This document shows, one piece after another, positions 3,247 through 64,000 of a stretch of DNA of 64,000 nucleotides (position 1 is the stretch's first letter; each line of letters starts with the position of its first letter). The notes under the pieces were generated by a model. That model saw only the letters and a program-made list of their open reading frames with translations. It was not told the DNA's origin and ran no database searches. Source of the DNA: Chlamydiota bacterium (lineage in GTDB: Bacteria > Auribacterota > Tritonobacteria > UBA1439); NCBI GenBank assembly GCA_012729785.1, contig JAAYCL010000011.1, positions 3,987 to 67,986 on the forward strand, given 5' to 3'. The position numbers were made by a program, and so were the translations under genes.

Positions 3247-4194
3247 CTACACGTGATTGCGCAGCATCAGCTCGCGCGGGTGCGGGTGCAGATAGTGCTG
3301 CCGGGCGAGGTACGGCTCCCGGAACTTGCGCACGTAGTGTTGGAGGAGGGTCACGGGGACGACGAGCGGCACCAGCCCGTCGTGGTACTGCGTCACCACC
3401 TCGCCCAGCTCCTTCTTCTCGTCCGCGGAGAGCGCCTTCTTGAAGTAGCCCGCGATATGGTAGAGCACGTTCGTGTTCTGCCGTACCGTCGCCGGCCGTT
3501 TCAACGCCTCCAGCAGGCCGCGTAGATACTCTTCCTGGAGCGCCTTGCGGCCCATCCCCTTCCCCCGCGCCACGAGCGCGCCCAGCTCCGTGAGCGCCTT
3601 CGGCCCGTGCGCCATCAGGATAAGCTTGTGCCGCGTGTGGAACTCCACGAGCCCCTTCAGCGCGCCGCCGGCGTCGAGGTAGCCGTGCCAGCGGTGCAGC
3701 ACGAAGACCCGTTCGATGAAGTTCTCCCGAAGGCCCGGGTCCTGGAGGCGCCCGTCGTCCTCGACGGGCAGGAGGGGGAAGTGCCGCATGAACTCCCTCG
3801 CCCAGATGCCGACGCCGTCCTTCCGGACGCCCGCGTCCCTGTAGACCTTCACGGCGCGCATCCCGGAGCTGGGGGAGTTGATCTTGAAGACGAAGCCGCA
3901 GAGGCGTTCCTGCGCGAGCGCCCTCAGCCGCGCGCCGGCCCATCGCACCATCCGATCGGTGTGGTCGACGCCGGTCTCGCGCGTCACGAGACGGGGCGAC
4001 GCGGGGTCGCCGACCAGGCGCATCGCCTCGCGCGGCACCTGGAGGCCGCATTCCACCTCGGGGCAGACGGGCACCCACTCCACGAACCGCCCCAGCGTGC
4101 CGGAGAGGTAGCGGTCGAGCTGGTGCCCGCCGTCGTAGCGCACGTTGCGCCCCAGCAGGCAGGCGCTTATCCCGAGCCTGATCGTATCGCCCAC
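3247..4194 (-). CDS. DUF523-DUF1722 fusion protein (YbgA-like)
   Basis: 315 residues. The N-terminal half is DUF523: it opens with ISACLLG and VRYDGG and continues with PVCPE and FKINSPS, a Cys-containing family of unknown activity. The C-terminal half, from about residue 185, is DUF1722 (KLILMAH, LPL-type helices, HHHP-like end), the domain of E. coli YbgA, which often sits next to DNA photolyase. The fusion of the two is common. No photolyase is nearby. Two conserved Cys in the N-half suggest metal or Fe-S binding, but this is inference. ATG 4194 has a purine-rich GGGGG leader. Confidence 0.85.
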   Translation of the reverse strand: MGDTIRLGISACLLGRNVRYDGGHQLDRYLSGTLGRFVEWVPVCPEVECGLQVPREAMRLVGDPASPRLVTRETGVDHTDRMVRWAGARLRALAQERLCGFVFKINSPSSGMRAVKVYRDAGVRKDGVGIWAREFMRHFPLLPVEDDGRLQDPGLRENFIERVFVLHRWHGYLDAGGALKGLVEFHTRHKLILMAHGPKALTELGALVARGKGMGRKALQEEYLRGLLEALKRPATVRQNTNVLYHIAGYFKKALSADEKKELGEVVTQYHDGLVPLVVPVTLLQHYVRKFREPYLARQHYLHPHPRELMLRNHV

Positions 4195-37633: not shown

Positions 37634-39115
37634 TCATCGCGCCCTTTCCAGAACGACCTCGAGCACCCGCCGCGTCGCCGGGGTCACCTTGAAACGCTCC
37701 GCGATCCGGTGCCCCGGGAGCCAGACGATCTCCCGGCCGCGGGCGAGGAGCGGGACGGCGCCGCGGAGGCGCGCGGGGAGCTTCTCGTCGATCAACACCC
37801 TCTTCAAGGCGCGCCCCCCCGCCGCACCGAGCGGGCGGAACCGGTCGCCCGGGCGCCGGGTCCTCACGGCGAGCCCCTCCCCTTCGAGCGCCTCCTGCGA
37901 GAGGAGCGCGGAGAGCGGCCACCCGTTCCAGTTGCCGCCCCATGCCGCCGCGAGCCCCGGCGTGTTCCGCCGAACGCGCCCGACCCCGCGGCGGGCGCGC
38001 ACGGCAACGCGGAACCGCAGGCGGCCCCCGGGGAACGGGATTTCGAGGCCGTCGGCGAGCGGATAGTCGTACGCCGGGTAGGCGGCCGGCGGCCGCCCGA
38101 TGACAAGCTCTCCGTACTCCCTGGAGACGACGACCCCGTCCGGGAGACAGACGGCCCCGCCTCCCCCCGGAACGCGGCAGAGGCGGGCGGCCGCCTCCGC
38201 GTCGGCGAACCGCACCTCGCCCGGTGTGCCGAGCGCGGCGAGCGCGCGGCGGAGGAGACCGGCCCTGAGGGCGGCGGGAAGGGCGGCGAAACGCCGCGCG
38301 GGAAAGACCACCCTGCGCTCCTCCTCCCGCGCCAGGGCGCGGTACCGCCTTGCGGCGTGCGTCTCGCAGAAGTCGTGCTCGCGGGCGAGCAGCTCCGCCG
38401 CCCGGATGAGGATCTCGCGCGCCCGGGGATTGAACTGCCGCTCCAGGTACGGGATCAGCCCGTGCCGCACCCGGTTCCTCAGGAAGAGGCGGTTTCGGTT
38501 GCTGGCGTCCGTCCGGAACGAAACGCCTTGCGCCTTCGCGACCGAGAGGATCTCCCTCCTCCAGAGGCAGAGGAGCGGCCGGACGATGCGCAGCGGCCCC
38601 TCGAAACGCACCGGCCGGATGCCGCCGAGCCCCCGCGCACCCGCCCCGCGGAGGAGTCGCAGCAGGAACGTCTCCGCCTGGTCGTCGGCGGTGTGCCCGA
38701 GGGCGACCGCCTCCGCCCTCGTTCGCGCGGCGCACCGCGCGAGGAACGCGTAGCGCGCCTCCCGCGCCGCCGTTTCGAATGAGAGACCCCTGCGCCGCGC
38801 GCGCGCGCGGACGTCCGACCTCCCCGCGAGGAGCGGGACGCCCAGGGACCGGCACGTGCGGCGCACGAGGGCGAGATCGCGATCGGCGTCGCGGCCGCGC
38901 AGGCCGTGGTGGAGGTGGGCGGCGCGAAGCGTGACGCCGAAAGACGGGGCAAGCGAGGCGAGCAGGTGCAGCAGCACCATCGAGTCGGGTCCGCCCGACA
39001 CGGCAACCAGGAGCGACCGCACGCCCCGCAGCATCCGGTGCAGGCGGATGAAGACCCGGACGCGCTCCACGGCCGCCGCCGCTTTCGGGGCGCCGCCCGC
39101 GCGTCCTCTCTTCAC
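37634..39115 (-). CDS. tilS: tRNA(Ile)-lysidine synthase TilS
   Basis: 493 residues. PP-loop SGGPDS (40-45), TADDQAETFL, NRNRLFLRNRVRHGLIP and a C-terminal domain with RTRRPGDRFRPLG. TilS puts lysidine on C34 of tRNA-Ile2, letting it read AUA. The start is GTG 39115, overlapping the stop of the upstream gene by four bases (GTGA). The tilS-ftsH order with a 46-base gap is conserved in many bacteria. Confidence 0.95.
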   Translation of the reverse strand: MKRGRAGGAPKAAAAVERVRVFIRLHRMLRGVRSLLVAVSGGPDSMVLLHLLASLAPSFGVTLRAAHLHHGLRGRDADRDLALVRRTCRSLGVPLLAGRSDVRARARRRGLSFETAAREARYAFLARCAARTRAEAVALGHTADDQAETFLLRLLRGAGARGLGGIRPVRFEGPLRIVRPLLCLWRREILSVAKAQGVSFRTDASNRNRLFLRNRVRHGLIPYLERQFNPRAREILIRAAELLAREHDFCETHAARRYRALAREEERRVVFPARRFAALPAALRAGLLRRALAALGTPGEVRFADAEAAARLCRVPGGGGAVCLPDGVVVSREYGELVIGRPPAAYPAYDYPLADGLEIPFPGGRLRFRVAVRARRGVGRVRRNTPGLAAAWGGNWNGWPLSALLSQEALEGEGLAVRTRRPGDRFRPLGAAGGRALKRVLIDEKLPARLRGAVPLLARGREIVWLPGHRIAERFKVTPATRRVLEVVLERAR

Positions 39116-40011
39116 GGCCCCGGAGCCGGCGTGGGCGCCGGGGTGGGCGTCGGGGTCGGCAGGAGCTCGAACCGCGTGTCGTCTATCCCCGTGATGCGCC
39201 CCTTCGTCTTCAAAGGGTTCATCCCCGGCCAGGCGAGCGCGCCGTAGAAGGTGTAGACCCCGGTCGGGTACTCAAGCGGCATCGGTCCGAAGTCGATCTC
39301 GCCGTCGAGATCGTCGATCTCGAGATTCCGGACGATCGGGTTCGGCTTCTCGTAGAAGCGGCCGCGCGAGCCGATGAAGAGCAGCCCCCCGGTCGGCGGG
39401 ACCACGGCGATGTACGCGTCCGCCGGAACCCCTTCCCACGACGGGTCCTGCACCTGGACCCGGTAGTTGAGGACGGCGTGCTCCCCCGGAACGATCCGGT
39501 CGAGCGACTCCATCCCGAGATCCACCGTCGGCGGCGGACCGCTCGGCAGCGGCGTGGGCGCGGAGACGACGGTGACAGTCCCGGCCCCCGCGCCCGCGTT
39601 CGACGAAGAGCCCCCGCCGTAGACCGTGCCGCTCGGGACTTCCACCTTGGTGACGGTGCCCACGGCGGCGCCGGGCGAGACGGTGAAGGAGAGAGTGGCG
39701 ACCGTCCCGTTGACCGAGTCGTCGCCGCTCACGGACCGCTCCCCCTCGAGTTTGAGGCGGCCGGCGTAGGGGGTGTCCACGTCCACCTTGAATCCGGCGG
39801 AGCCCATCACGTCGTCGTAGTCGAGAAAACCAGACTTGTACTCGACGGTGCAGTCGAACTTTGTGACGGCCAGATCCGTCCTGAGTCCGACCGGGATTCT
39901 CACCCGCTCGCCCGGGTAGCCGCTGACGCTTCCCACCGTGAAGTTCGTCGCCCCGCAGGGGGCCGCCAGGAGCGCCGGAACGACCATCCAGAACCACGCG
40001 CCACGTCGCAT
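39112..40011 (-). CDS. Secreted protein with cohesin-like domain
   Basis: 299 residues. Signal peptide (1-22). Residues about 23-150 form a cohesin-type beta domain: PGERVRIPVGL, KFDCTVEYKSGFLDYDD and VATLSFTVSPGA. A second beta domain follows (about 165-280), then a Thr-Pro-Ala tail (PTPTPTPAPTPAP) at the end. Cohesins bind dockerins in cellulosomes, but solitary ones also occur on surfaces. No dockerin was seen. ATG 40011 has GGGAGGTGG. Translation of tilS is coupled to it, an odd pairing. Confidence 0.75.
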   Translation of the reverse strand: MRRGAWFWMVVPALLAAPCGATNFTVGSVSGYPGERVRIPVGLRTDLAVTKFDCTVEYKSGFLDYDDVMGSAGFKVDVDTPYAGRLKLEGERSVSGDDSVNGTVATLSFTVSPGAAVGTVTKVEVPSGTVYGGGSSSNAGAGAGTVTVVSAPTPLPSGPPPTVDLGMESLDRIVPGEHAVLNYRVQVQDPSWEGVPADAYIAVVPPTGGLLFIGSRGRFYEKPNPIVRNLEIDDLDGEIDFGPMPLEYPTGVYTFYGALAWPGMNPLKTKGRITGIDDTRFELLPTPTPTPAPTPAPGP

Positions 40012-40147
40012 CGCCACCTCCCCGCCGCGCACCGCCGCGGCCTCTACAGTATATGATAGCCCACGAACTCGAGGGCGGCAAGGGCGCCGTCCCTCAGGGC
40101 GTCATCCCTAAGCCCCCATCCCTCGGCCCCATGCCTTTTCATCTTTC

Positions 40148-45025: not shown

Positions 45026-45847
45026 TCACCCTTGCCGGGTCGGCAGGTGGCGGCGGTGGGCGCGAAGACGGGCGCGGATCTTCTTGACCCCGCCCATCCT
45101 CGGGTGCAGCTGGAGCGCGGCGAGGAGGGTGATCCTCGCGAGCCGTTCCTCCCCCGCACGGCAGTACCGCTCGGCGATCTTCTTGTACAGGAACGCCCGC
45201 TCCCTCCTGTTCATCTCCCCCGCCAGTTCGTCCGCGAACCCGCCGAGGGCGTAGGCGAACTGCCCTTCCGTCTCGAGCAGCTCCAGCACGAGGTTGCGCA
45301 TCCGCAGGCGGATCTCGGCCCTGAAGTGCCGGAAGTAGCGGCGCGACGCGTCCTCCCGGTAGATCTCCCGGTACTGCTCGAACGCCGCCCTCGGCCGGTG
45401 CTGGCGCTCGAGCTCCTCGGCGACGAGAAACCCGCAGTCGAGGAAGTCCCGGTACGGCATATGGGCCTTCAGGGAGAAGGCGCTCCGGGAATCCCGCATC
45501 CTCTCGTAGAGGGCGAGCCCCTCCCGGCCGCGCCCCTCGAGGAGGTCGAGGAAGACGAGCTGGCAGCAGGCGGCGGGATCGTTTCCCCTCCTCCGCAGCG
45601 ACTCCCGGTAGGCGCTCCCCCGACGAACCTCGATGCGGGAAAGGGTCCTGTCGTAGACCGCCCGCTTCTCGTCGTCGAACAGGACCTCGTAGGCCCTGAG
45701 CACCTCCTGGATGCGGTCGTGCGCCCAGCGGTTCCGGTCGGGGTGGAAGTCGGGATGGTACTTTTTCGCCATCGCACGGAAGGCGGCCTTCACCGCCTCC
45801 CGGGAGGCGGTGCGGTCGATCTCGAGCAGTTCGTAGTAGGTCGTCAT
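45026..45847 (-). CDS. DnaJ-domain protein
   Basis: 273 residues. J domain at the N-terminus: YYELLEIDRTAS, YHPDFHPDR with HPD (31-33). The rest is mostly helical, with tetratricopeptide-like character (YREIYREDASRRYFRHF), without the Gly/Phe or zinc domain of DnaJ. It would recruit a DnaK to an unknown client. ATG 45847 has no Shine-Dalgarno, but a TATACTATACGAT box ends about 20 bases upstream. Converges on korC, 35 bases apart. Confidence 0.82.
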   Translation of the reverse strand: MTTYYELLEIDRTASREAVKAAFRAMAKKYHPDFHPDRNRWAHDRIQEVLRAYEVLFDDEKRAVYDRTLSRIEVRRGSAYRESLRRRGNDPAACCQLVFLDLLEGRGREGLALYERMRDSRSAFSLKAHMPYRDFLDCGFLVAEELERQHRPRAAFEQYREIYREDASRRYFRHFRAEIRLRMRNLVLELLETEGQFAYALGGFADELAGEMNRRERAFLYKKIAERYCRAGEERLARITLLAALQLHPRMGGVKKIRARLRAHRRHLPTRQG

Positions 45848-46047
45848 GGGGCACAGGTCGATCGTATAGTATAGCGCAGCGCCTCGGCGCACGACACGCG
45901 GCAAAACCGCCCCCGCCGCCATCCCCCCGCCCGGGAGGCGGGAGCGGGGGGTCGCCTCCCCCCGGCGCCGCGCCGGAATAACTGTTGCGCCGGCGGTGCC
46001 GTTGGGGCAGAATCGCCGTGCCGGGGGCCGAGGCCCCCTCCGAGCCG

Positions 46048-47067
46048 ATGAACGCTGCAACCGGCGGGGCGCGCCCCCGCGTCACGGTCGTCATCCCCTC
46101 CTACAACGGGGAGAGACTCCTCCCGGGCTGCCTGGATGCGCTCGCCCGGCAGGAGTACCGTTCGTTTCGCACGGTCGTCGTGGACAACGGATCCACGGAC
46201 AACTCGCCCGGCCTCCTCGCCGCGCGGTACCCTTCCGTCCTCGTCATCCAGATGGGCCGCAACGCGGGGTTCGCCGCGGCGGTGAACGCGGGGATCCGCC
46301 GCGCGGAGACCGAATTCGTCTCCCTCCTCAACAACGACACCGCGGCGGACCCGGGCTGGCTCGGCGCGCTCGTCGGCGCCCTCGACGCCCATCCGGCGTT
46401 CGCCTTCTGCGCGTCGAAGATGGTCGACTTCTACGACCCCCGGATCATCGACAGCGCCGGGAACTGCCTCGCCTCGAACGGGCGCTCCGTCCCGCGCGCG
46501 TTCCTCGAGGAGGATCGCGGCCGTTACGACAAGTATGCGGAGGTCTTCGGCGCGTGCGCGGGGGCGGCGCTCTACCGCCGCTCCCTCTTCGACCGGACGG
46601 GGCTCTTCGACGAGCGGTTCGTCTCCTACAAGGAGGACGTGGACCTCGACTTCAGGGCGCAGCTCGCCGACCTCCGCTGCCTCTATGTCCCCTCCGCCGT
46701 CTGCCGGCATATCGGGGGGGCGACCAGCGGGCGCCGGAAGAGCGACCTCGCGGTGCGACTGGGCACGCGGAACGGGATCGCGCTCTTCGTCAAGAACATG
46801 CCCGCGGCCCTGCTCTTCCGCACGGTCCCGAGGCTGCTCCTCGACCTCGCCTTCCAGCTCGCCCACCAGACGCTCGGGGGAGGGCAGGCGGTTCCGCTGC
46901 TCCGCGGCCTCCTCGGCGGGGCGGCGATGGTGCCGCACGCCCTGCGCGAACGCAAGAGGATCCAGCGGCGGGCGACGCCGGACCTCCCGCGCCTGCGGCG
47001 GCTGCTGCGGGAGGGGGACGAGGAGGTCAAACGCCATCGCGCCCGGTGCCGCCGGGGCGGGGGATGA
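46048..47067 (+). CDS. Glycosyltransferase family 2
   Basis: 339 residues. GT-A fold: VVIPSYNGERLLPGCLDAL, VVDNGSTDNSP, NNDTAADPGWL and FDERFVSYKEDVDLDFRA. The C-terminal third is basic and helical. Resembles rhamnosyl or other surface-polysaccharide transferases. The ATG at 46048 was chosen as the first good Met before the catalytic core. It opens the glycan locus. Confidence 0.88.
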   Translation: MNAATGGARPRVTVVIPSYNGERLLPGCLDALARQEYRSFRTVVVDNGSTDNSPGLLAARYPSVLVIQMGRNAGFAAAVNAGIRRAETEFVSLLNNDTAADPGWLGALVGALDAHPAFAFCASKMVDFYDPRIIDSAGNCLASNGRSVPRAFLEEDRGRYDKYAEVFGACAGAALYRRSLFDRTGLFDERFVSYKEDVDLDFRAQLADLRCLYVPSAVCRHIGGATSGRRKSDLAVRLGTRNGIALFVKNMPAALLFRTVPRLLLDLAFQLAHQTLGGGQAVPLLRGLLGGAAMVPHALRERKRIQRRATPDLPRLRRLLREGDEEVKRHRARCRRGGG

Positions 47068-47118: not shown

Positions 47119-48276
47119 TCAGACCGGCCCCGCCGCTAAGGACTCCTCCTCGGGCATCCGGCCGCGCGGCCGGTAGCTGCTGGCGCAGCAGCCCGCGCAC
47201 GCCGGGAAGATCCGGCGTTCCTTCAGCCGTCTCCTGAACCGCGCCTGGTCCGGCCCGTTCCAGACGTCGCGCGGGCGTCTCCTCCTGATGTTCCCCAGCG
47301 ACAGGAACGGGCACGAGCTCATCTCGCCGTAAGCGGAGATGCCGAGCATGCGCCACGGGGTGAAGCAGCGGTACTCCGCGAGATTCGAACGGTCGTCGTA
47401 GTAGCGCACGATCTCCTCGGGCGTCACGCCGAACGGCGAGAAGCGCACCTGCGCCCCGCCCCCGCGCGCCTCCTCCGCGACCAGCCGCAGCTGGGCGCGG
47501 AGGAGTTTCGGGTCGATGCGCATCCGGGTTCCCGCAACCGCCTCGTGCCCGGGGAATTCGACGGTCGGGATGCGGCTGCCGAAGTCCGCGCTGTTCATGA
47601 CGGTGAAGTTGCAGTAGTCCGCCCCGACGTCCCTCGCCGCCCGGTACGTCTCCGCGAGATGCGGCGCGTTCCGGTCGGTGATGACGCAGGTCGCGTGGAT
47701 GTGCGGAAACGCGGCGCAGCGCCTCGCGCGCAGCGCGCGCAGCCGCCCGATCCCCGCGCAGGCGAGCGCGTGCGCCCCCTTCCTGCCGACGATCTCGTCG
47801 TGGACGCTGGCGGGGCCGTGCAGGGAGACGCCGACGGCGAAGAGCCCGCCGCCCCCGACCCACCGCAGCCGGTTCTCGAAGAGGAACGCGGCGGCCGCGT
47901 CGTCGAGGAGCGTGCCGTTGGTGATGACGTGGAGCTTGTTCCGCGGGGCGAGGGCGGCGAAGATCGCGGGAAGGTCCTTCCTGAGGAGCGGCTCGCCGCC
48001 GGTAAAGGTCACGACCGCGGTGCGCGGGAACGACTGCACGAACTCCAGGACCTCCGCCGCCGAGAGTTCCTCCCCCCTCCTCCCCTCCAGCCCGCCCTTC
48101 TCGAGGAGCGGGAGGAACTGGCACATCCGGCAACGGAGGTTGCAGCGGTAGGTGAGCTCGACGAAGAGGTGGAGCGGCGGGAACGCGAAGCCGGGGCGCA
48201 GACGGTACGGCGCGAGCGTGTAGAGCGAGCTCAAGGCGTCGTAGCAGCGGGCGAGGTTCAGCGGCGGCCTCTTCAC
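47119..48276 (-). CDS. Radical SAM protein with SPASM-like C-terminus
   Basis: 385 residues. Cluster motif CNLRCRMC (Cys45, Cys49, Cys52). Later, RCFTPWRMLGI, SSCPF and CAGCCAS near the end give extra Cys for an auxiliary cluster of SPASM/twitch type. The start GTG 48276 overlaps the stop of the DUF2723 gene (GTGA), so both are made together. Substrate unknown; peptide or sugar modification is possible in this glycan context. Confidence 0.85.
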   Translation of the reverse strand: MKRPPLNLARCYDALSSLYTLAPYRLRPGFAFPPLHLFVELTYRCNLRCRMCQFLPLLEKGGLEGRRGEELSAAEVLEFVQSFPRTAVVTFTGGEPLLRKDLPAIFAALAPRNKLHVITNGTLLDDAAAAFLFENRLRWVGGGGLFAVGVSLHGPASVHDEIVGRKGAHALACAGIGRLRALRARRCAAFPHIHATCVITDRNAPHLAETYRAARDVGADYCNFTVMNSADFGSRIPTVEFPGHEAVAGTRMRIDPKLLRAQLRLVAEEARGGGAQVRFSPFGVTPEEIVRYYDDRSNLAEYRCFTPWRMLGISAYGEMSSCPFLSLGNIRRRRPRDVWNGPDQARFRRRLKERRIFPACAGCCASSYRPRGRMPEEESLAAGPV

Positions 48277-50261
48277 CGGGCGCCCTCCGGGATGAGCTCG
48301 TAGACGGCGGCGTCGTTCATCCCGCTCAGGTCGCCGCACGAGTAGCGCAGGCGCTCCTCGACCTCGCCGGTCGACGGATCCACGATCGCCACGTTCACCC
48401 CGCGGTCCCCGCCCCCGACCGACCTGCCATCCACGCGGATCCGGCTCCGGTCGCCGCGGCCGAGCGGCGCGCTCTCGATCTCGATCGACGCGGGCGAGAC
48501 GATCCCGCTGTCGCCGACCGGGGCGCCCATGGCGAGGCGGATCCGCGCCACGCCGAAGCGGTGCACGACGATGCCGCGCGGCGCCCCCCGGACCGGCACC
48601 ACCGCCGCGGCGGTGCTCCAGCCCCACCGCATCCCGCCCGCGCTGCGGGGCTTGAGGCCGAGGGAGAGGAGGAAGTCGTACGCCGCGTCGTTGCAGACGG
48701 GCATCCCCTCGTCCTTCGCCGAGACGAGCAGGAGGCGCCCCTCCGCGCGTTTCCGGAGGGCGTCGAGCGCGGCGCTCTCCTGGAACAGCAGCGGCTCGAG
48801 CCGCTCCCCCGCCCTGCGGAACCGTGCGATGCGCGGGTCGAACGACGACTGCGCGTGGAACAGGATGCGAAGCGGCGGCGCGGGCGCCGCCGCCGGCCGG
48901 TAGACGAGGAAGTCTATCCCCCTCCCCCGCCGGTACTCCGGAACCCTCCCGGGCTCCCAGTTGTTCAGGATGAACACCGGGTCGTCGCCTCGCGCCCCCT
49001 CGCCGAGGATCTTGTACAGGTACGCCTCGGTCCACTGGTAGTTCGGCGAGAGGAGCAGCCCTCCCGCGGGGATGACCTCCAGCGCCTTCGAGGTGAACTC
49101 GTCGTAGTGCCTGACGCGGCTCAGGTCCGCGCCTGGCCAGTCCCGCGCCGCGGGGATTGCGATCAGGGCAACGGCGGCGCACGCGCAGACGGCGAGGAGC
49201 GCCCGCCCCGCGGCCCCCCGGTTCCGCGCGATCTCCGCGACGAGCGGCACGGAGCAGCCGGCGAGGACGGCCGCCGTCAGGCAGGAGGGGACGAAGTAGA
49301 CCGGGGTCTCGACCGTCACGGACGGGAGCGACAGGAAGAGCTGCCCCGCCCAGAGGGCGGCGAGGGCGGCGAGGAACCTCGGGTGGAGGCGGCCAAGCCA
49401 CACGGCGCCCGCCGCGGCCAGGACCGCCCCCGCGACGCCGAACTGGCTCCGCATGACGGAGAGATAGAGGCGCAGGTGCACGGTGAGTATCGTGCCCAGC
49501 GGCGCGGGGAAGTAGTTCGCCGTGTACCGTCCGCCGAGCGCGTAGCGGACGAGCCCGGCGAGGCCGTCCACACGCCCCTCGAGGTAGACGGGGTCGCCGC
49601 GCGACCAGGCGTAGATGAGGAGGTACTGCGCGGCCCCCGCCGCGGCGATCGCCGCCATCGGGAGCAGGTCGCCCCTCCGGAGCGACGGCCGGCCCTTCCC
49701 GGGCCACGCGGCCACGGCGAACGCCGGGAGGAACGCCAGGAGGGACGGGTGGTTGCCGAGCCCCGCGCAGAAGAACGCCCACGACAGGTACAGGAAACGG
49801 CGGCGGGGCCGGCGCAGCCACGCGGCGAGGAAGAGCAGCGCGGCGGAGAGCAGGAGGGTGTTGAGCGTGTACACCTCCGGGATGAGCGCCGACGACCAGA
49901 AGAGCGGGATCGTGCCGAGCAGCCCCGCCGAGAGGAGCCCGGCGAGCGTCCAGCCGGTGAGGAGGGAAACCAGCAAAGAGACCAGCGCGAGCGTCGCCGC
50001 GCCGCAGGCGGCGGAGATGAAGCTCACGCGCGCCGCGAGCATGCCCACGGGCAGTTGCGAGACGAGCCGGTTGATCGCCAGATACAGCGGGAACCCGGTC
50101 GGGTGCGGGAGCCCGCGGATCTTTCCGACGAACTGGAACTTCGAGCTGTCGCCGTACCCCCCGACGCACGGGAGCATCGTGCGGCCGTAGACGACGAGGA
50201 AAAGCGCCAGGACCGCCGCCGCGACCGCCAGGTTCCGCCTGGAGGGAGAAGGGACGCGCAT
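48273..50261 (-). CDS. DUF2723 membrane protein with C-terminal ILEI-like domain
   Basis: 662 residues. DUF2723 signature near the start: GYGDSSKFQFVGK then HPTGFPLYLA, and about 10 transmembrane helices to residue 370. DUF2723 proteins resemble O-mannosyltransferases. A soluble C-terminal part (about 370-662) ends in a beta domain with DRGVNVAIVDPSTGEV, like the interleukin-like EMT inducer (ILEI/FAM3) fold also found in bacterial glycan proteins. ATG 50261. It is coupled to the radical SAM gene downstream. Confidence 0.83.
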   Translation of the reverse strand: MRVPSPSRRNLAVAAAVLALFLVVYGRTMLPCVGGYGDSSKFQFVGKIRGLPHPTGFPLYLAINRLVSQLPVGMLAARVSFISAACGAATLALVSLLVSLLTGWTLAGLLSAGLLGTIPLFWSSALIPEVYTLNTLLLSAALLFLAAWLRRPRRRFLYLSWAFFCAGLGNHPSLLAFLPAFAVAAWPGKGRPSLRRGDLLPMAAIAAAGAAQYLLIYAWSRGDPVYLEGRVDGLAGLVRYALGGRYTANYFPAPLGTILTVHLRLYLSVMRSQFGVAGAVLAAAGAVWLGRLHPRFLAALAALWAGQLFLSLPSVTVETPVYFVPSCLTAAVLAGCSVPLVAEIARNRGAAGRALLAVCACAAVALIAIPAARDWPGADLSRVRHYDEFTSKALEVIPAGGLLLSPNYQWTEAYLYKILGEGARGDDPVFILNNWEPGRVPEYRRGRGIDFLVYRPAAAPAPPLRILFHAQSSFDPRIARFRRAGERLEPLLFQESAALDALRKRAEGRLLLVSAKDEGMPVCNDAAYDFLLSLGLKPRSAGGMRWGWSTAAAVVPVRGAPRGIVVHRFGVARIRLAMGAPVGDSGIVSPASIEIESAPLGRGDRSRIRVDGRSVGGGDRGVNVAIVDPSTGEVEERLRYSCGDLSGMNDAAVYELIPEGAR

Positions 50262-50442: not shown

Positions 50443-51390
50443 ATGGACCAGCCGAGATTGTCCGTGGTCATCCCCCTCCACGACGACGCAGGGATCGTCG
50501 GGGAATGCCTGGCATCCGTGCGCGCGGTCCTCGACGCCTCCTTCCCGGGCGCCTACGAGCTCGTCTTCGTGGACGACGGCAGCGCCGACGGCACCGCGGC
50601 CGCGCTCCTCTCCCGCGCCGAAAACGATCCGCGCGTGAAACTCGTCGAGCTCGACCGCAACTACGGGCAGCACGCCGCCCTCTGCGCGGGCCTGGAGGCC
50701 TCCTCCGGCGACGTCATCGTCACGCTCGACTCCGATCTCCAGATCGGCCCCGAGGCGATCCCGCTCCTCGCCGCGAAGCTGGCCGAGGGGCACGACCTCG
50801 TGAGCGGGGTGCGCCTCGGCCGCACCGACTCGTTGTTCCTCCGTACCCTCCCGTCGCGCCTGTTCAATCTCCTCGTCGTTCATATGACCGGCGTCCGGCT
50901 CCGCGACTGGGGCTGTCCCGCGGTCGCCCTGTCGAGGCCTCTCGCGACGCAGGTCCTCCGCTACGGCGAGATGCGCCGGTTCCTCAAGCCGCTCGGCGTG
51001 ATGCTCGCCCGCTCCACCGCCGAGGTCGAGCTCCGGCACCGCCCCCGCATCGGCGGGCGCTCCGGCTACTCGTTCGCCGACCTGTTCGAGCTCGCCCTCG
51101 ACTTCGTCACCAACTTCAGCCGCCGCCCGTTCCAGAAGGTCAGCCTCGCCGGGACCGCGCTCGTCGCGTTCGGCCTCGTCACGGGCGCCGCCTACACCCT
51201 GCTCCGCCTCCTCCTCGGCGTCTCGCCCGGCAACCGCGTGCAGGCGCTCGTCTTCCTCTCCCTCGTGCTGGGCCTCCAGCTCGCGGTCCTGGGCTTCCTC
51301 GGGGAGTTCATCATCCGCATCTACCGCCGCCAGAACAATCTCCCCTTCTACACCGTCCGGGCGGTCCGCGGGGGAAAGGGGGGGACGTGA
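50443..51390 (+). CDS. Polyprenyl-phosphate glycosyltransferase (DPM1/ArnC-like GT2)
   Basis: 315 residues. GT-A motifs: VVIPLHDDAGIVGECL, FVDDGSADGT, DRNYGQHAALCAGL and DSDLQIGPEAI. Two C-terminal transmembrane helices (about 238-290) anchor it. It loads a sugar onto polyprenyl phosphate, which could feed the DUF2723 or ArnT-like transferases. Its stop overlaps the acetyltransferase start (GTGA). Confidence 0.9.
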   Translation: MDQPRLSVVIPLHDDAGIVGECLASVRAVLDASFPGAYELVFVDDGSADGTAAALLSRAENDPRVKLVELDRNYGQHAALCAGLEASSGDVIVTLDSDLQIGPEAIPLLAAKLAEGHDLVSGVRLGRTDSLFLRTLPSRLFNLLVVHMTGVRLRDWGCPAVALSRPLATQVLRYGEMRRFLKPLGVMLARSTAEVELRHRPRIGGRSGYSFADLFELALDFVTNFSRRPFQKVSLAGTALVAFGLVTGAAYTLLRLLLGVSPGNRVQALVFLSLVLGLQLAVLGFLGEFIIRIYRRQNNLPFYTVRAVRGGKGGT

Positions 51391-52349
51391 TCAGGGACTA
51401 CCGCCCGGGCGACGAGGAGGCCGTCGGCGCGCTGTTCGCCGCGTACCCGTACGGCGACCTGCGCCGGTACCGCCTCGTCAACCGGGAGAAGCAGGCCGCC
51501 TACCTCCGGCACAAGCTCTCCTCCTGCCTCAAGGACGGCCGGGTTTTGGTGGCGGAGGCGGGCGGCGCGGTGCGCGCCCTCGCCGCCTTCAGACCGCTGC
51601 CGTGGGATTCCTCCATCTTCGGCATCTCGATGGGGCAGGCGCCCCTCTTCGTCCACGACGCAGGCGAGGGCGTCCGCGCGGAGATCGGACAGCTCGCCGG
51701 GGCGCTGCGGGACGCCTGCCGCGCCGGGGGCGTCGTCCACCTCAACGTCAGGGCCGACGCGGACGATCTGGCCCTGATGCAGTGCCTCGAGGGGAACGGC
51801 TTCTACCTCGCGGACACGATCGTCACCTACATCTTCATCCCGCGCCGCCAGCAGCTCGGGCACGGCAAGTACCTGTTCAAGACGCGCCTCTACGAGCCCC
51901 GGGACCACGACGCCGTCCTCGCGGTCGCCGCCGCGGCGTACCGGAACTTCATCGGCCGCTACCACGCCGACCCGCACCTGCCGCGCGAGCTGTGCGACCG
52001 CCTCTACCAGGCCTGGGCGCGCCAGCTCCTCGACGGCGGGATCGCCGAGACGATCATCGTGGCGGAGCGGAAGGGCACGGTGGTCGGCTTCCTCGGCTAC
52101 CGGCTCAAGAGGGACATCCTCGAGGCGACCGGCGTGCGGTGCGTGGGCGGCGGGCTCGGCGGCTGCACGCCGGAAGGGTTCGGGGCGTACACCGCCATCA
52201 TCGAGGAGGCGATGCGGGAGGGGATGCACCGCTACGACATGCAGGACTTCGAGACGCAGCTCAACAACGTCAACATCGTCCGCATCTACCAGAAGCTCAA
52301 CTTCGAGTACGCCCGCGCCAAACACACCTTCCACGCCTGGCTCGGCTGA
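51387..52349 (+). CDS. GNAT acetyltransferase, WecD-like, two-domain
   Basis: 320 residues. Begins at GTG 51387 (overlaps the stop of the upstream gene). Two GNAT-like halves: the first resembles WecD (PLPWDSSIFGISMG), the second holds the acetyl-CoA loop (VRCVGGGLGGCTP). WecD acetylates dTDP-fucosamine; here the acceptor would be an amino sugar, fitting the DegT aminotransferase beside it. Confidence 0.83.
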   Translation: MIRDYRPGDEEAVGALFAAYPYGDLRRYRLVNREKQAAYLRHKLSSCLKDGRVLVAEAGGAVRALAAFRPLPWDSSIFGISMGQAPLFVHDAGEGVRAEIGQLAGALRDACRAGGVVHLNVRADADDLALMQCLEGNGFYLADTIVTYIFIPRRQQLGHGKYLFKTRLYEPRDHDAVLAVAAAAYRNFIGRYHADPHLPRELCDRLYQAWARQLLDGGIAETIIVAERKGTVVGFLGYRLKRDILEATGVRCVGGGLGGCTPEGFGAYTAIIEEAMREGMHRYDMQDFETQLNNVNIVRIYQKLNFEYARAKHTFHAWLG

Positions 52350-52370: not shown

Positions 52371-53519
52371 TCACGCCAGCACCTTCCGCACCGCCGCGAT
52401 CACGTCCTCCACGTCCCCGTCGGAGAGCTTCGCCGAGAGCGGCAGCGAGATCGTCCGGTCCGACACGAACTCCGCGTTCGGGAACTCCCCGCGCCGGTAC
52501 CCGTACCGCTCGCGGTAGTACCGGTGCAGGTGCACGCTCACGAAATGGATCCCGGTCCCGATATTCTCCCGGTGGAGCGCCTGCTGGACCTCGTCCCGGC
52601 TCCTGCCGAGGGCGTCGATGTCCACGAGCGGGGTGTACAAATGGCGGGCGTGGACGGTGTCCGGCTCGGGGGGGGCGGGGAGGATGAGCGGCAGGTCCCG
52701 GAACGCCTCGTCGTAGCGGCGCCAGATCTCCTCGCGGCGCCGCAGGTAGCGCTCGATGCGCGGGAGCTGGTGGATCCCCAGCGACGCCTGCAGGTCCGTC
52801 ATGTTGTACTTGTAGCCGGGGTAGACCACCTCGTAGTGCTTGAAGCCGTCGTCGGTGTAGCGCCTCCAGGCGCCCTTGTTCAGTCCGTGCAGGCCGTACA
52901 TCTCGATCTGCTCGGCCCAGGCCGGGTTGTTCGTGGTGACCATCCCGCCCTCGCCGGTGGTGATGTTCTTCGTCACGTAGAAGGAGAAGACGGTGAGGTC
53001 GCCGATCGAGCCGATCTTCCTCCCCCGGTAGACCGCCTCGATGGCGTGCGCGGCGTCCTCGATGACCACGAGCCCGCGCTCCCGCGCGATCTCGAGGATC
53101 GGGTCCATCGCGCAGGGGCGCCCGGCGAAGTGCACCGGGATGACGGCGCGCGTCTTGGGGGAGAGCCGCCGCCGGATCTCCTCCGGGTCGATGTTCATCG
53201 TGCGGCGGTCGATCTCGGCGAAGACCGGGACGGCGCCGACGTGCGTGATGACGTTGACCGTGGCCGCGAAGGTCATCGGGGAGGTGATCACCTCGTCGCC
53301 GGGCCGGACCCCCGACACGAGCATCGAGAGGTGGAGCCCCGCCGTGCAGGAGCCGAGGGCGTGCGCGTAGTTCGCCCCGGCGTACGCGCGGAACATCTCC
53401 TCGAATCTGCCGACCCGCGGCCCCGTCGAGATCCAGCCCGACCGGAGGCACTCCACGGCCTCCGCGATCTCGGGCTCCTCGATCAGGGGGCTGCCGAACA
53501 CGAGGAATGTCTTTCTCAC
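52371..53519 (-). CDS. DegT/DnrJ/EryC1 sugar aminotransferase
   Basis: 382 residues. PLP Lys184 in YVTKNITTGEGG; VIEDAAHA (Asp155) and GSCTAGLHL are classic. It makes an amino deoxysugar from a nucleotide-keto sugar. Start is GTG 53519; the open frame continues upstream into the tRNA gene region, but that portion is not protein-like. Converges on the WecD-like gene, so the two probably act in one amino sugar pathway. Confidence 0.92.
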   Translation of the reverse strand: MRKTFLVFGSPLIEEPEIAEAVECLRSGWISTGPRVGRFEEMFRAYAGANYAHALGSCTAGLHLSMLVSGVRPGDEVITSPMTFAATVNVITHVGAVPVFAEIDRRTMNIDPEEIRRRLSPKTRAVIPVHFAGRPCAMDPILEIARERGLVVIEDAAHAIEAVYRGRKIGSIGDLTVFSFYVTKNITTGEGGMVTTNNPAWAEQIEMYGLHGLNKGAWRRYTDDGFKHYEVVYPGYKYNMTDLQASLGIHQLPRIERYLRRREEIWRRYDEAFRDLPLILPAPPEPDTVHARHLYTPLVDIDALGRSRDEVQQALHRENIGTGIHFVSVHLHRYYRERYGYRRGEFPNAEFVSDRTISLPLSAKLSDGDVEDVIAAVRKVLA

Positions 53520-53557
53520 GCGGATACTCGCCGGCTCATGTGCGGGGTATGTTGTCC

Positions 53558-53587
53558 CTAGAAACGAGCAACGAGAAACTAGAAACG
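53558..53587. repeat. Short direct repeat CTAGAAACG, 21-bp period
   Basis: Two copies (53558-53566, 53579-53587) in the leader between the aminotransferase and tRNA-Met. The pattern AACTAGAAAC occurs as an intergenic repeat in many uncultured genomes. Confidence 0.5.
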
Positions 53588-62540: not shown

Positions 62541-64000
62541 TCACCATCCGTAATCCTGCGCCCCCACAGCCCCCCAGTGCCCGCCCTGCGTCGCCGCCCA
62601 ATCCCGATAGAACGACGCCGGTCCGGCGAACGATTCGGGCTGGAAGTTGATCATCACATCCCCGCCAGGCGCCGCGCACGCCACGCTCGTCAGCGCCGCG
62701 TCCCAGTACGTCGTCCCGTCCCTCCCGATGTACAGCGTCACGGCCTCCGCACTGCTGATTTCCGGCAGGTACACGTTCATCTCTTCTCCCGCCTCATTCA
62801 CGATCACCAGGCAGTCCCCAGCATCAACCGTGATCGTCGTATCGACCGGTTCCACAAACAGTGCCGTTGCCTCTGACGGATAAACCGCCCCCTCCATAAA
62901 CTCATTGCCGCTATCATTCACCGACCCCATGATCTCTTCGGATGGATTGACCGCGGTCCCCATGTAATACACAAAGCCATTCTCTTCCACGGATCTTGGC
63001 ACCGCGACTCTCATCCCCGATACGCTTCCCGTCTCCAGCGCCTGATTCGCCGGGGGCACCGTCGCCGTCGGCGTCGGCGTGGGGGCCGGAGGGCCCTGCG
63101 CCAGCTCGCACAGACCCGCATCCCAGTACGTCGACCCGTCCGCCCCCACGTACAGCCACTGTTCATCCCCACTAAAAGAGGGGAAGTAGACTTTCTTCGT
63201 CTGCCCCCCGTCGTACGTCACCGTCACGTAATCACCCGCTTCGATTGCGATTTCTTCCTCCTCAGTTTGCACCCCGACCACCATCGCCCGCGGCGAGTAG
63301 CTGCCCTCGTCGGTGAACGCGTTGCTGCGGTCGTACACGATCCCCATGGGAGACCACGGGCCGCCTTCCACCGACCCGAAAGAATAGAACCACCCGTTCC
63401 CCGCCTCCGCCCTCACCGTCCCGATCTCCAGCCCCTCCACGTCCCCGGCCCTGAACGCCTCCGCGCACGGTGTCTCCGTCGCCGTCGGTGTGATCGTCGG
63501 CGTCTCCGTCGGCTCAGGCGTCTCCGTCGGTGTCTCCGTCGGCGTTTCTGTCGGCGTTTCCGTCGGCTCCGGCGTTTCCGTCGGCGTCTCCGTCGGCTCC
63601 GGTGTCTCCGTCGGCTCCGGTGTCTCCGTCGGCGTCTCCGTCGGCGTCGGCGTCTCCGTGGGCGTCGGGGTGATCGTCGGCGTCTCCGTCGGTGTCTCTG
63701 TCGGCGTCGGCGTCTCCGTGGGCGTCGGGGTAATCGTCGGCGTTTCCGTCGGCGTCTCCGTCGGCTCCGGCGTCTCCGTCGGCGTTTCTGTCGGTGTCTC
63801 CGTCGGTTCCGGTGTCTCCGTCGGCGTCTCCGTCGGCTCCGGTGTCTCCGTCGGCGTTTCTGTCGGTGTCTCCGTCGGCGTCGGCGCGGGCGTCCACTCC
63901 GTCTTCACCAGGTAGCTCACCGGTTCCGCCGACCCGAAATGGATCCACCCTACGTTCTCTCCCCACGCGTAGCCGGAGAAATTGCCCCCTGAATCTATCG
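62541..64000 (-). CDS. Large secreted protein, 5' end beyond the window (partial)
   Basis: The frame is open to the window's right edge; the last 486 codons are seen. The edge part reads [16 protein letters not shown], the GYAW...GWI-F module often repeated in extracellular bacterial proteins. It is followed by a Pro-Thr-Glu linker of about 140 residues (63480-63900), then two related beta domains (about 63460-63115 and 63045-62660), each ending in a YWDA motif ([20 protein letters not shown]) and each with an AGD(Y/C) turn. A PTPTPTAT linker separates them. The stop is at 62541. Probably a surface or S-layer-like protein. Confidence 0.8.
63480..63900 (-). repeat. Degenerate 6/12-bp tandem repeats encoding Thr-Pro-Glu linker
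   Basis: Units of GGCGTCTCCGTC type in many variants, encoding TPTETPTE and TPEPTETP. The non-identical codons show it is old and maintained for protein composition. In the opposite frame it gives meaningless Gly-Val-Ser repeats. Prone to slippage and assembly errors. Confidence 0.85.

Follow-up and report, generated by a model that had tools for sequence, protein, structure and literature searches.

What does a radical SAM enzyme do beside a membrane glycosyltransferase with whose gene its own shares four bases? The question is raised by a window of 64,000 nucleotides (the whole stretch of DNA that was analysed, positions 3,987 to 67,986 of contig JAAYCL010000011.1, assembly GCA_012729785.1) from the genome of an uncultured bacterium of Candidatus Auribacterota, in which the gene for a SPASM-type radical SAM protein (P0001) overlaps that for a DUF2723 protein (P0002) inside a glycan locus. 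An earlier, sequence-only reading had proposed that the two could form a new surface modification system. We compared the locus across six genomes of one family (the window genome, G000, and G001 to G005; G003 and G004 are 94-96% complete), within a set of 44 genomes of the phylum. Judged from the sequence comparisons, the locus is genuine and conserved, an Arn-like glycosylation block whose glycosyltransferase of the C class (GT-C) is of the TMEM260 type and carries a circularly permuted ILEI domain. The family-wide unit is this block of DUF2723, ArnC-like, GNAT, ArnB-like DegT and GT2 genes, not the radical SAM-DUF2723 pair, the radical SAM gene being an accessory restricted to certain lineages.

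Both genes lie on the minus strand, overlapping as first read, and their Pfam domains PF11028, PF04055 and PF13186 all score above cut-off. They and their parts are as follows.

48273..50261, minus strand: DUF2723/TMEM260-type GT-C glycosyltransferase, 662 residues (PF11028 54.3 bits, E 1.9e-14, cut-off 24.2)
49713..50150, minus strand: core of PF11028 (residues 38-183), whose GGYGD (D38) lies in the first extracytoplasmic loop (Pfam; alignment)
48615..48779, minus strand: permuted ILEI domain, equivalent of the canonical C-terminal half, residues 495-549 (POMGNT1 chain 70-125, E 3.9e-5 as a half alone)
48327..48494, minus strand: permuted ILEI domain, equivalent of the canonical N-terminal half, residues 590-645 (PF15711 positions 1-23 on residues 620-642)
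47119..48276, minus strand: radical SAM gene, 385 residues, GTG start, with a radical SAM domain and a short twitch-type SPASM (PF04055 2.1e-17, PF13186 1.5e-10)
48121..48144, minus strand: CX3CX2C radical SAM cluster motif (C45, C49, C52), conserved among aligned homologues
47188..47367, minus strand: twitch/SPASM region, C-x12-G-x4-C ... C-x2-C-C (alignment; SPASM Pfam stretch 304-363)

The junction sequence, CCCGGTGAAGAG, holds the GTG start of the radical SAM gene and the TGA stop of the DUF2723 gene in a GTGA overlap. We set the radical SAM start by this overlap and by the orthologue in the congener G005, whose ATG falls at the same place, giving a 4-base ATGA overlap at the same junction. 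Between these two genomes the ratio of nonsynonymous to synonymous rates (Nei-Gojobori) is ~0.32 for the DUF2723 gene and, over the first 295 codons, ~0.25 for the radical SAM gene; thus both genes are under purifying selection.

We considered first what P0002 is. PF11028 also matches four relatives of P0002 (39-87 bits), and the top PDB sequence match of P0002 is human TMEM260 (9rql, 2.1e-12). The protein has ~10 hydrophobic segments, all upstream of residue 375. An AlphaFold model built from a 5-sequence alignment (predicted local distance difference test, pLDDT, 75; predicted template modelling score 0.77) aligned by VIA with known GT-C enzymes, with Z of 25.0 for PMT, 24.7 for PglB and 24.4 for ArnT. 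D38 of GGYGD is invariant in the six homologues; residues 34-55 around it have pLDDT <50, a poorly modelled loop for which the model does not give the site geometry. We conclude that P0002 is, by fold class, a TMEM260-type GT-C, with sugar transfer as its predicted activity. It shares with TMEM260, a GT117 protein O-mannosyltransferase, a PF11028 core over cut-off, the PDB match to the human enzyme and the GT-C fold; however, TMEM260 ends in C-terminal TPR repeats (PMC11292533), whereas the window family ends in the permuted ILEI domain and comes with an amino-sugar donor arm. We found no assigned donor or acceptor for bacterial DUF2723/TMEM260 proteins in the papers searched, none of which contains the term DUF2723.

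The C-terminal part of P0002 had been read as ILEI/FAM3-like, and a profile built on the C-terminal ~190 residues of the six family proteins does match the POMGNT1 stem (6.8e-6), FAM3B (1.1e-5) and FAM3C (0.005). In both POMGNT1 and FAM3B, the C-terminal stretch of the profile (137-166) pairs with the N-terminal part of the chain and its N-terminal stretch (23-79) with the part that follows. Searched alone, the half that corresponds to the canonical N-terminal half has cell-surface hyaluronidase and FAM3B (FAM3B 54-79) as its best matches, each individually weak (0.05-0.1). PF15711, the ILEI model, is matched by all six family members (best 1.1e-6). In their natural order, five full-length homologues score 18.9 (P0002), 18.5, 16.7, 25.7 and 15.4 bits on this model, single-half stretches below the Pfam cut-off of 27 bits; when the halves were re-ordered in silico and the intervening segment removed, the same five scored 33.1 (P0002), 27.4, 26.8, 33.0 and 24.8 bits, and the halves became one contiguous ILEI match (profile 1-71 in P0002). 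This gain is as predicted by circular permutation. With a doubled-domain profile the halves remained separate stretches because of the intervening segment; once this was removed, they joined. Thus the domain does belong with ILEI, but only as two halves in inverted order, and the profile alignments lead us to conclude that it is a circular permutation of ILEI. Like the ILEI/FAM3 domains of the POMGNT1 stem, FAM3B/C and cell-surface hyaluronidase, both of its halves match independently; unlike them, the halves are inverted, linked by a non-ILEI segment and fused to a GT-C enzyme.

The ILEI-type domains of POMGNT1 and FAM3 bind sugars, in POMGNT1 through R129, D179 and R207 (PMC9802357). In the ungapped profile alignment these residues correspond to R620, D517 and R545 of P0002, with the same 28-residue spacing from D to R. 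D517, the D179 equivalent, is invariant in all six family members, and both arginines are kept only in some relatives. At the R545 position, G000, G005 and G002 have Arg and the other three have Thr, Leu and Ala; this split follows that of the radical SAM gene, a correspondence that among six related genomes serves only as a lead. In the 44 phylum genomes the ILEI profile brought up no additional proteins, the permuted-domain profile matched the six family members and nothing else, and a scan of viral contigs gave none. We found no description of a circularly permuted ILEI/FAM3 domain in the literature; the permutation would show that a sugar-binding fold can be re-cut.

How far does the pair extend beyond this genome? 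Full-length P0002 homologues (32-69% identity) are present in all six family genomes, and in the other 38 phylum genomes DUF2723 matches are partial at best and lack the C-terminal domain. A scan of 84,980 species genomes returned four P0002 relatives, each an already known family genome, by narrow peptide patterns that could miss rarer distant relatives. The conserved block consists of GT2, DUF2723, ArnC-like GT2, GNAT and DegT genes, split over two contigs in G001; a J-domain gene borders it in G001, G003 and G004 as well as in the window. A radical SAM orthologue (78% identical in G005, 54% in G002) stands beside the DUF2723 gene in three of the six genomes, downstream in G000 and G005 and upstream on the same strand in G002. 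The pair is therefore not peculiar to this genome, since the adjacency occurs in three genomes of two genera, with the order reversed in one. At other DUF2723 loci of the phylum we found no related radical SAM gene within short flanks.

The place beside the DUF2723 gene is filled otherwise elsewhere: in G003 and G004 the surrounding region holds sulfatase-superfamily genes, and in G001 a methyltransferase gene adjoins DUF2723. With orthologues in only three of the six genomes and this slot filled otherwise in the rest, the pair is real but optional. We note that in the sulfatase-superfamily proteins of the slot (L074:5929-7383, L074:10837-12342 and L075:5336-6817; two copies in G004) T-x-P-S-H replaces C/S-x-P-x-R, and that these proteins may be phospho-transferases or phosphodiesterases rather than sulfatases.

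The other genes of the block, among them the predicted donor arm, are as follows.

50443..51390, plus strand: ArnC-like polyprenyl-phosphate glycosyltransferase (GT2, two C-terminal transmembrane segments; PDB 9bhc ArnC 8.3e-53, NF007986 185.5 bits)
51387..52349, plus strand: acetyltransferase, GNAT superfamily, WecD-like motif PWDSSIFG (Acetyltransf_1 20.4 bits, just under the cut-off of 20.7)
52371..53564, minus strand: DegT-family sugar aminotransferase, ArnB-like (PF01041 4.9e-125; ArnB 1mdo 5.4e-90)
45985..47067, plus strand: soluble GT2 glycosyltransferase, a conserved locus member (PF00535 3.7e-29; orthologues 63-66% identical beside DUF2723 in G002, G003 and G004)
45026..45982, minus strand: J-domain protein bordering the conserved block (PF00226 DnaJ 1.4e-18; orthologues 59-63% identical in G001, G003 and G004)

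The ArnC-like open reading frame (ORF) can be read from 50389, with an ATG at 50443. Two of the neighbours assigned in the sequence-only reading stand, the DPM1-like glycosyltransferase as an ArnC homologue and the DegT aminotransferase as closest to ArnB; the WecD-like label on the acetyltransferase holds only weakly, since the WecD model NF008212 does not match the window protein and gives a weak 25.7 bits for the G004 homologue. ArnC-like and ArnB-like genes are found in all six family genomes. DegT orthologues are 81-86% identical in G005, G004, G001 and G003; in G002 the locus contig has no close DegT, and the best ArnB-like match, at only 53% identity, is on a different contig.

The Arn, or 4-amino-4-deoxy-L-arabinose (L-Ara4N), pathway is the nearest known parallel, in that an ArnB-like aminotransferase, an ArnC-like undecaprenyl-phosphate glycosyltransferase and a GT-C acceptor transferase are encoded together. 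It differs in that the window locus has, instead of ArnT, a TMEM260/DUF2723-type GT-C that bears a permuted ILEI domain, that a GNAT protein replaces the formyltransferase and that the locus has no ArnD. The window locus lacks ArnT, ArnA and ArnD, and those functions lie in a separate, complete canonical Arn operon in the same genome (G000:C14, L094:1068-8854), which encodes ArnB, ArnC, an ArnT-like GT-C, a separate formyltransferase, a uridine diphosphate-4-keto-pentose synthase and ArnD. The window ArnB and ArnC are paralogues of those copies (53% and 41% identical). Thus the precursor pathway exists in this genome, and the window block adds a second ArnB/ArnC set, which has diverged and is coupled with another GT-C. 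The canonical operon, for its part, points to L-Ara4N-type lipid A modification in Auribacterota.

We then asked what the radical SAM protein might act upon. It has no transmembrane segments, and its twitch/SPASM region has ligands for one auxiliary cluster, with 4-5 Cys that do not make up the seven-Cys SPASM pattern. None of the NCBIfam models comes near its cut-off (best 62.7 versus 380 bits), and the best PDB match is the anaerobic sulfatase-maturating enzyme (anSME; 7e-9). The one-auxiliary-cluster Cys pattern resembles that of the sugar-modifying BtrN/AprD4-type enzymes, and BtrN is among the weak PDB matches via SPASM (E 0.085-0.095), but the sequence match is too weak for membership. 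The closest paralogues in the family (33-37% identical) sit in exopolysaccharide loci of G000, G004, G005 and G002, between a GT1 gene on one side and a methyltransferase gene and an XrtA-type polysaccharide deacetylase gene (TIGR03006, 312 versus a cut-off of 276) on the other; in the loci examined at length (G000, G004 and G005) a B12-binding radical SAM gene is present as well. Glycosyltransferase genes also adjoin several of the more distant relatives within the phylum. The sequence-only reading would have been undone by membership of a known peptide-maturase family, and we found no such membership. Since the protein lies outside those families and the pair occurs in more than one genome, we favour a glycan role. 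What had been proposed as a surface modification system keeps this glycan role, but the pair is not a system in itself, as the DUF2723 and ArnC/ArnB/GNAT block occurs without the radical SAM gene in half of the family.

Two observations concern these radical SAM genes more widely. The exopolysaccharide loci of the family (L080, L077, L078, L079 and L009-L014) keep GT1, radical SAM/SPASM, methyltransferase and TIGR03006 deacetylase genes in a fixed order, to which the B12-binding radical SAM gene also belongs in L077, L079 and L080. In G005:C116 (L072:6811-7344), past residue ~298 the radical SAM frame enters unrelated ferredoxin-like (4Fe-4S) sequence near the contig end, which is probably a chimeric contig of a metagenome-assembled genome, and possibly a fusion.

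Building on the gene identities, fold class, permutation, locus conservation and variable slot that sequence comparison provides, we infer the sugar, the acceptor, the acylation step and the radical SAM reaction as follows. We suggest, as an evenly balanced judgement, that the locus is a second, Arn-like extracytoplasmic glycosylation module, in which a TMEM260-type GT-C would replace ArnT and donor tailoring by the radical SAM enzyme would be optional. The ArnB-like aminotransferase would make a nucleotide-linked 4-amino sugar, which the acetyltransferase would acylate in place of formylation by ArnA and the ArnC-like enzyme would load onto undecaprenyl phosphate; given the acetyltransferase, the simplest product would be an N-acylated 4-amino sugar on that carrier. 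A flippase would turn the loaded sugar to the outside, where the GT-C would move it to an extracytoplasmic acceptor, with the permuted ILEI domain aiding transfer as a putative glycan-binding module. A soluble, presumably cytoplasmic radical SAM enzyme cannot meet an extracytoplasmic acceptor, and so it would act either on the donor before flipping or on the acceptor before export. Action on the donor fits the context better: most likely the enzyme would use radical chemistry to epimerise, dehydrate or oxidise the donor sugar or the polyprenyl-phosphate form of it, as an optional tailoring step whose slot is taken by other modifying genes in other relatives.

Such a plan has a published counterpart in the three-component GT136 pentofuranose systems (PMC11127046), in which a polyprenyl-phosphate sugar synthase, a flippase and a GT-C with a C-terminal carbohydrate-binding module are joined by optional auxiliary epimerases that diversify the donor before export. 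There, however, the synthase is PPPRS and the binding module Ig-like, whereas the window has an ArnC/DPM1-like synthase, a permuted ILEI domain, a radical SAM enzyme for the epimerase and no flippase gene among the locus genes examined. A more specific version, tentative and in our view unlikely, is that the radical SAM enzyme remodels a polyprenyl-phosphate- or nucleotide-linked amino sugar, that the permuted ILEI domain of the TMEM260-type transferase reads the modified glycan, and that the exchangeable cassette varies the surface sugar between species. The locus is suggestive of a system for surface-sugar decoration whose modifying enzyme can be exchanged, and in it a DUF2723 protein is tied to an ArnB/ArnC donor arm and hence to a testable sugar and lipid carrier. 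Radical chemistry, from a radical SAM enzyme in an exchangeable place next to a GT-C, would extend the means by which surface glycans are diversified.

Several results weigh against this Arn-like module. With a domain-only model, Foldseek returned no ILEI structure and nothing at E <0.001 in the PDB or among viral models, and VIA-align of the domain model with POMGNT1 (5ggj) gave only Z 3.8, with a root-mean-square deviation of 3.1 over 82 residues; the structural comparisons speak neither for nor against the permutation, the claim of which rests on the alignments of sequence. The radical SAM gene is missing from G001, G003 and G004, and the substrate class of its product is deduced from gene context only. 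The window ArnB and ArnC fall below the NCBIfam equivalog cut-offs (373.7 versus 631 and 185.5 versus 529 bits), as do the canonical copies of the G000:C14 operon. No flippase is present among the locus genes examined, and no GtrA member in the six family genomes, in which the MATE and EamA families were not searched. Finally, the DUF2723 family is best known for protein O-mannosylation, and the acceptor may thus be a protein.

The last point leads to a possible but unlikely alternative, that P0002 is a TMEM260-like protein O-glycosyltransferase whose acceptor protein is altered by the radical SAM enzyme while still in the cytoplasm and only then exported, the whole serving surface protein modification. 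TMEM260 is a protein O-mannosyltransferase (PMC11292533) and the top PDB match of P0002, many SPASM proteins act on peptides, anSME leads the PDB matches of P0001, and a J-domain gene flanks the block. However, we found no gene for an acceptor protein or precursor in the locus, whose genes abut or overlap and whose divergent spacer offers one small ORF, of 40 residues, which is not convincing; the 4-5 SPASM Cys compare with 7 in classical peptide maturases; and the donor arm is of the ArnB/ArnC and not the mannose type.

A quite unlikely explanation is that the radical SAM gene stands here by chance: as a mobile or lineage-specific gene of exopolysaccharide synthesis it would have come to lie in a glycan region while serving another locus, such as the XrtA-type one. 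Its absence from three genomes, two of them 94-96% complete, its different order relative to DUF2723 in G002 and the service of its paralogues in exopolysaccharide loci would all fit. Against this, adjacency and strand are kept in all three genomes with an orthologue, the 4-base overlap recurs in two species of one genus, the gene is under purifying selection, and the genomes that have it are those with Arg at the POMGNT1 R207 position, a weak correspondence among six genomes. Very improbable is an anSME-like activator of the sulfatase-superfamily genes of the slot, suggested by the best PDB match and by the position of those genes around DUF2723 in G003 and G004, since the slot proteins bear T-x-P-S-H and never share a genome with the radical SAM gene. 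We rejected this idea on that motif and on a score of 36.8 bits for P0001 versus the TIGR03942 cut-off of 349.5.

Further genes of the window deserve mention. At least four family genomes keep the J-domain protein (45026-45982) on the border of the glycan block. A secreted protein at 39112-40032 has a cohesin domain (PF00963, 30.3 bits versus a cut-off of 24.1) and a Thr/Pro-rich tail, such tails being possible O-glycosylation acceptors. An ORF at 62541-63998, cut by the window end and without a Pfam match, carries long PTPTET/TPEPTE-type repeats and may encode a surface protein.

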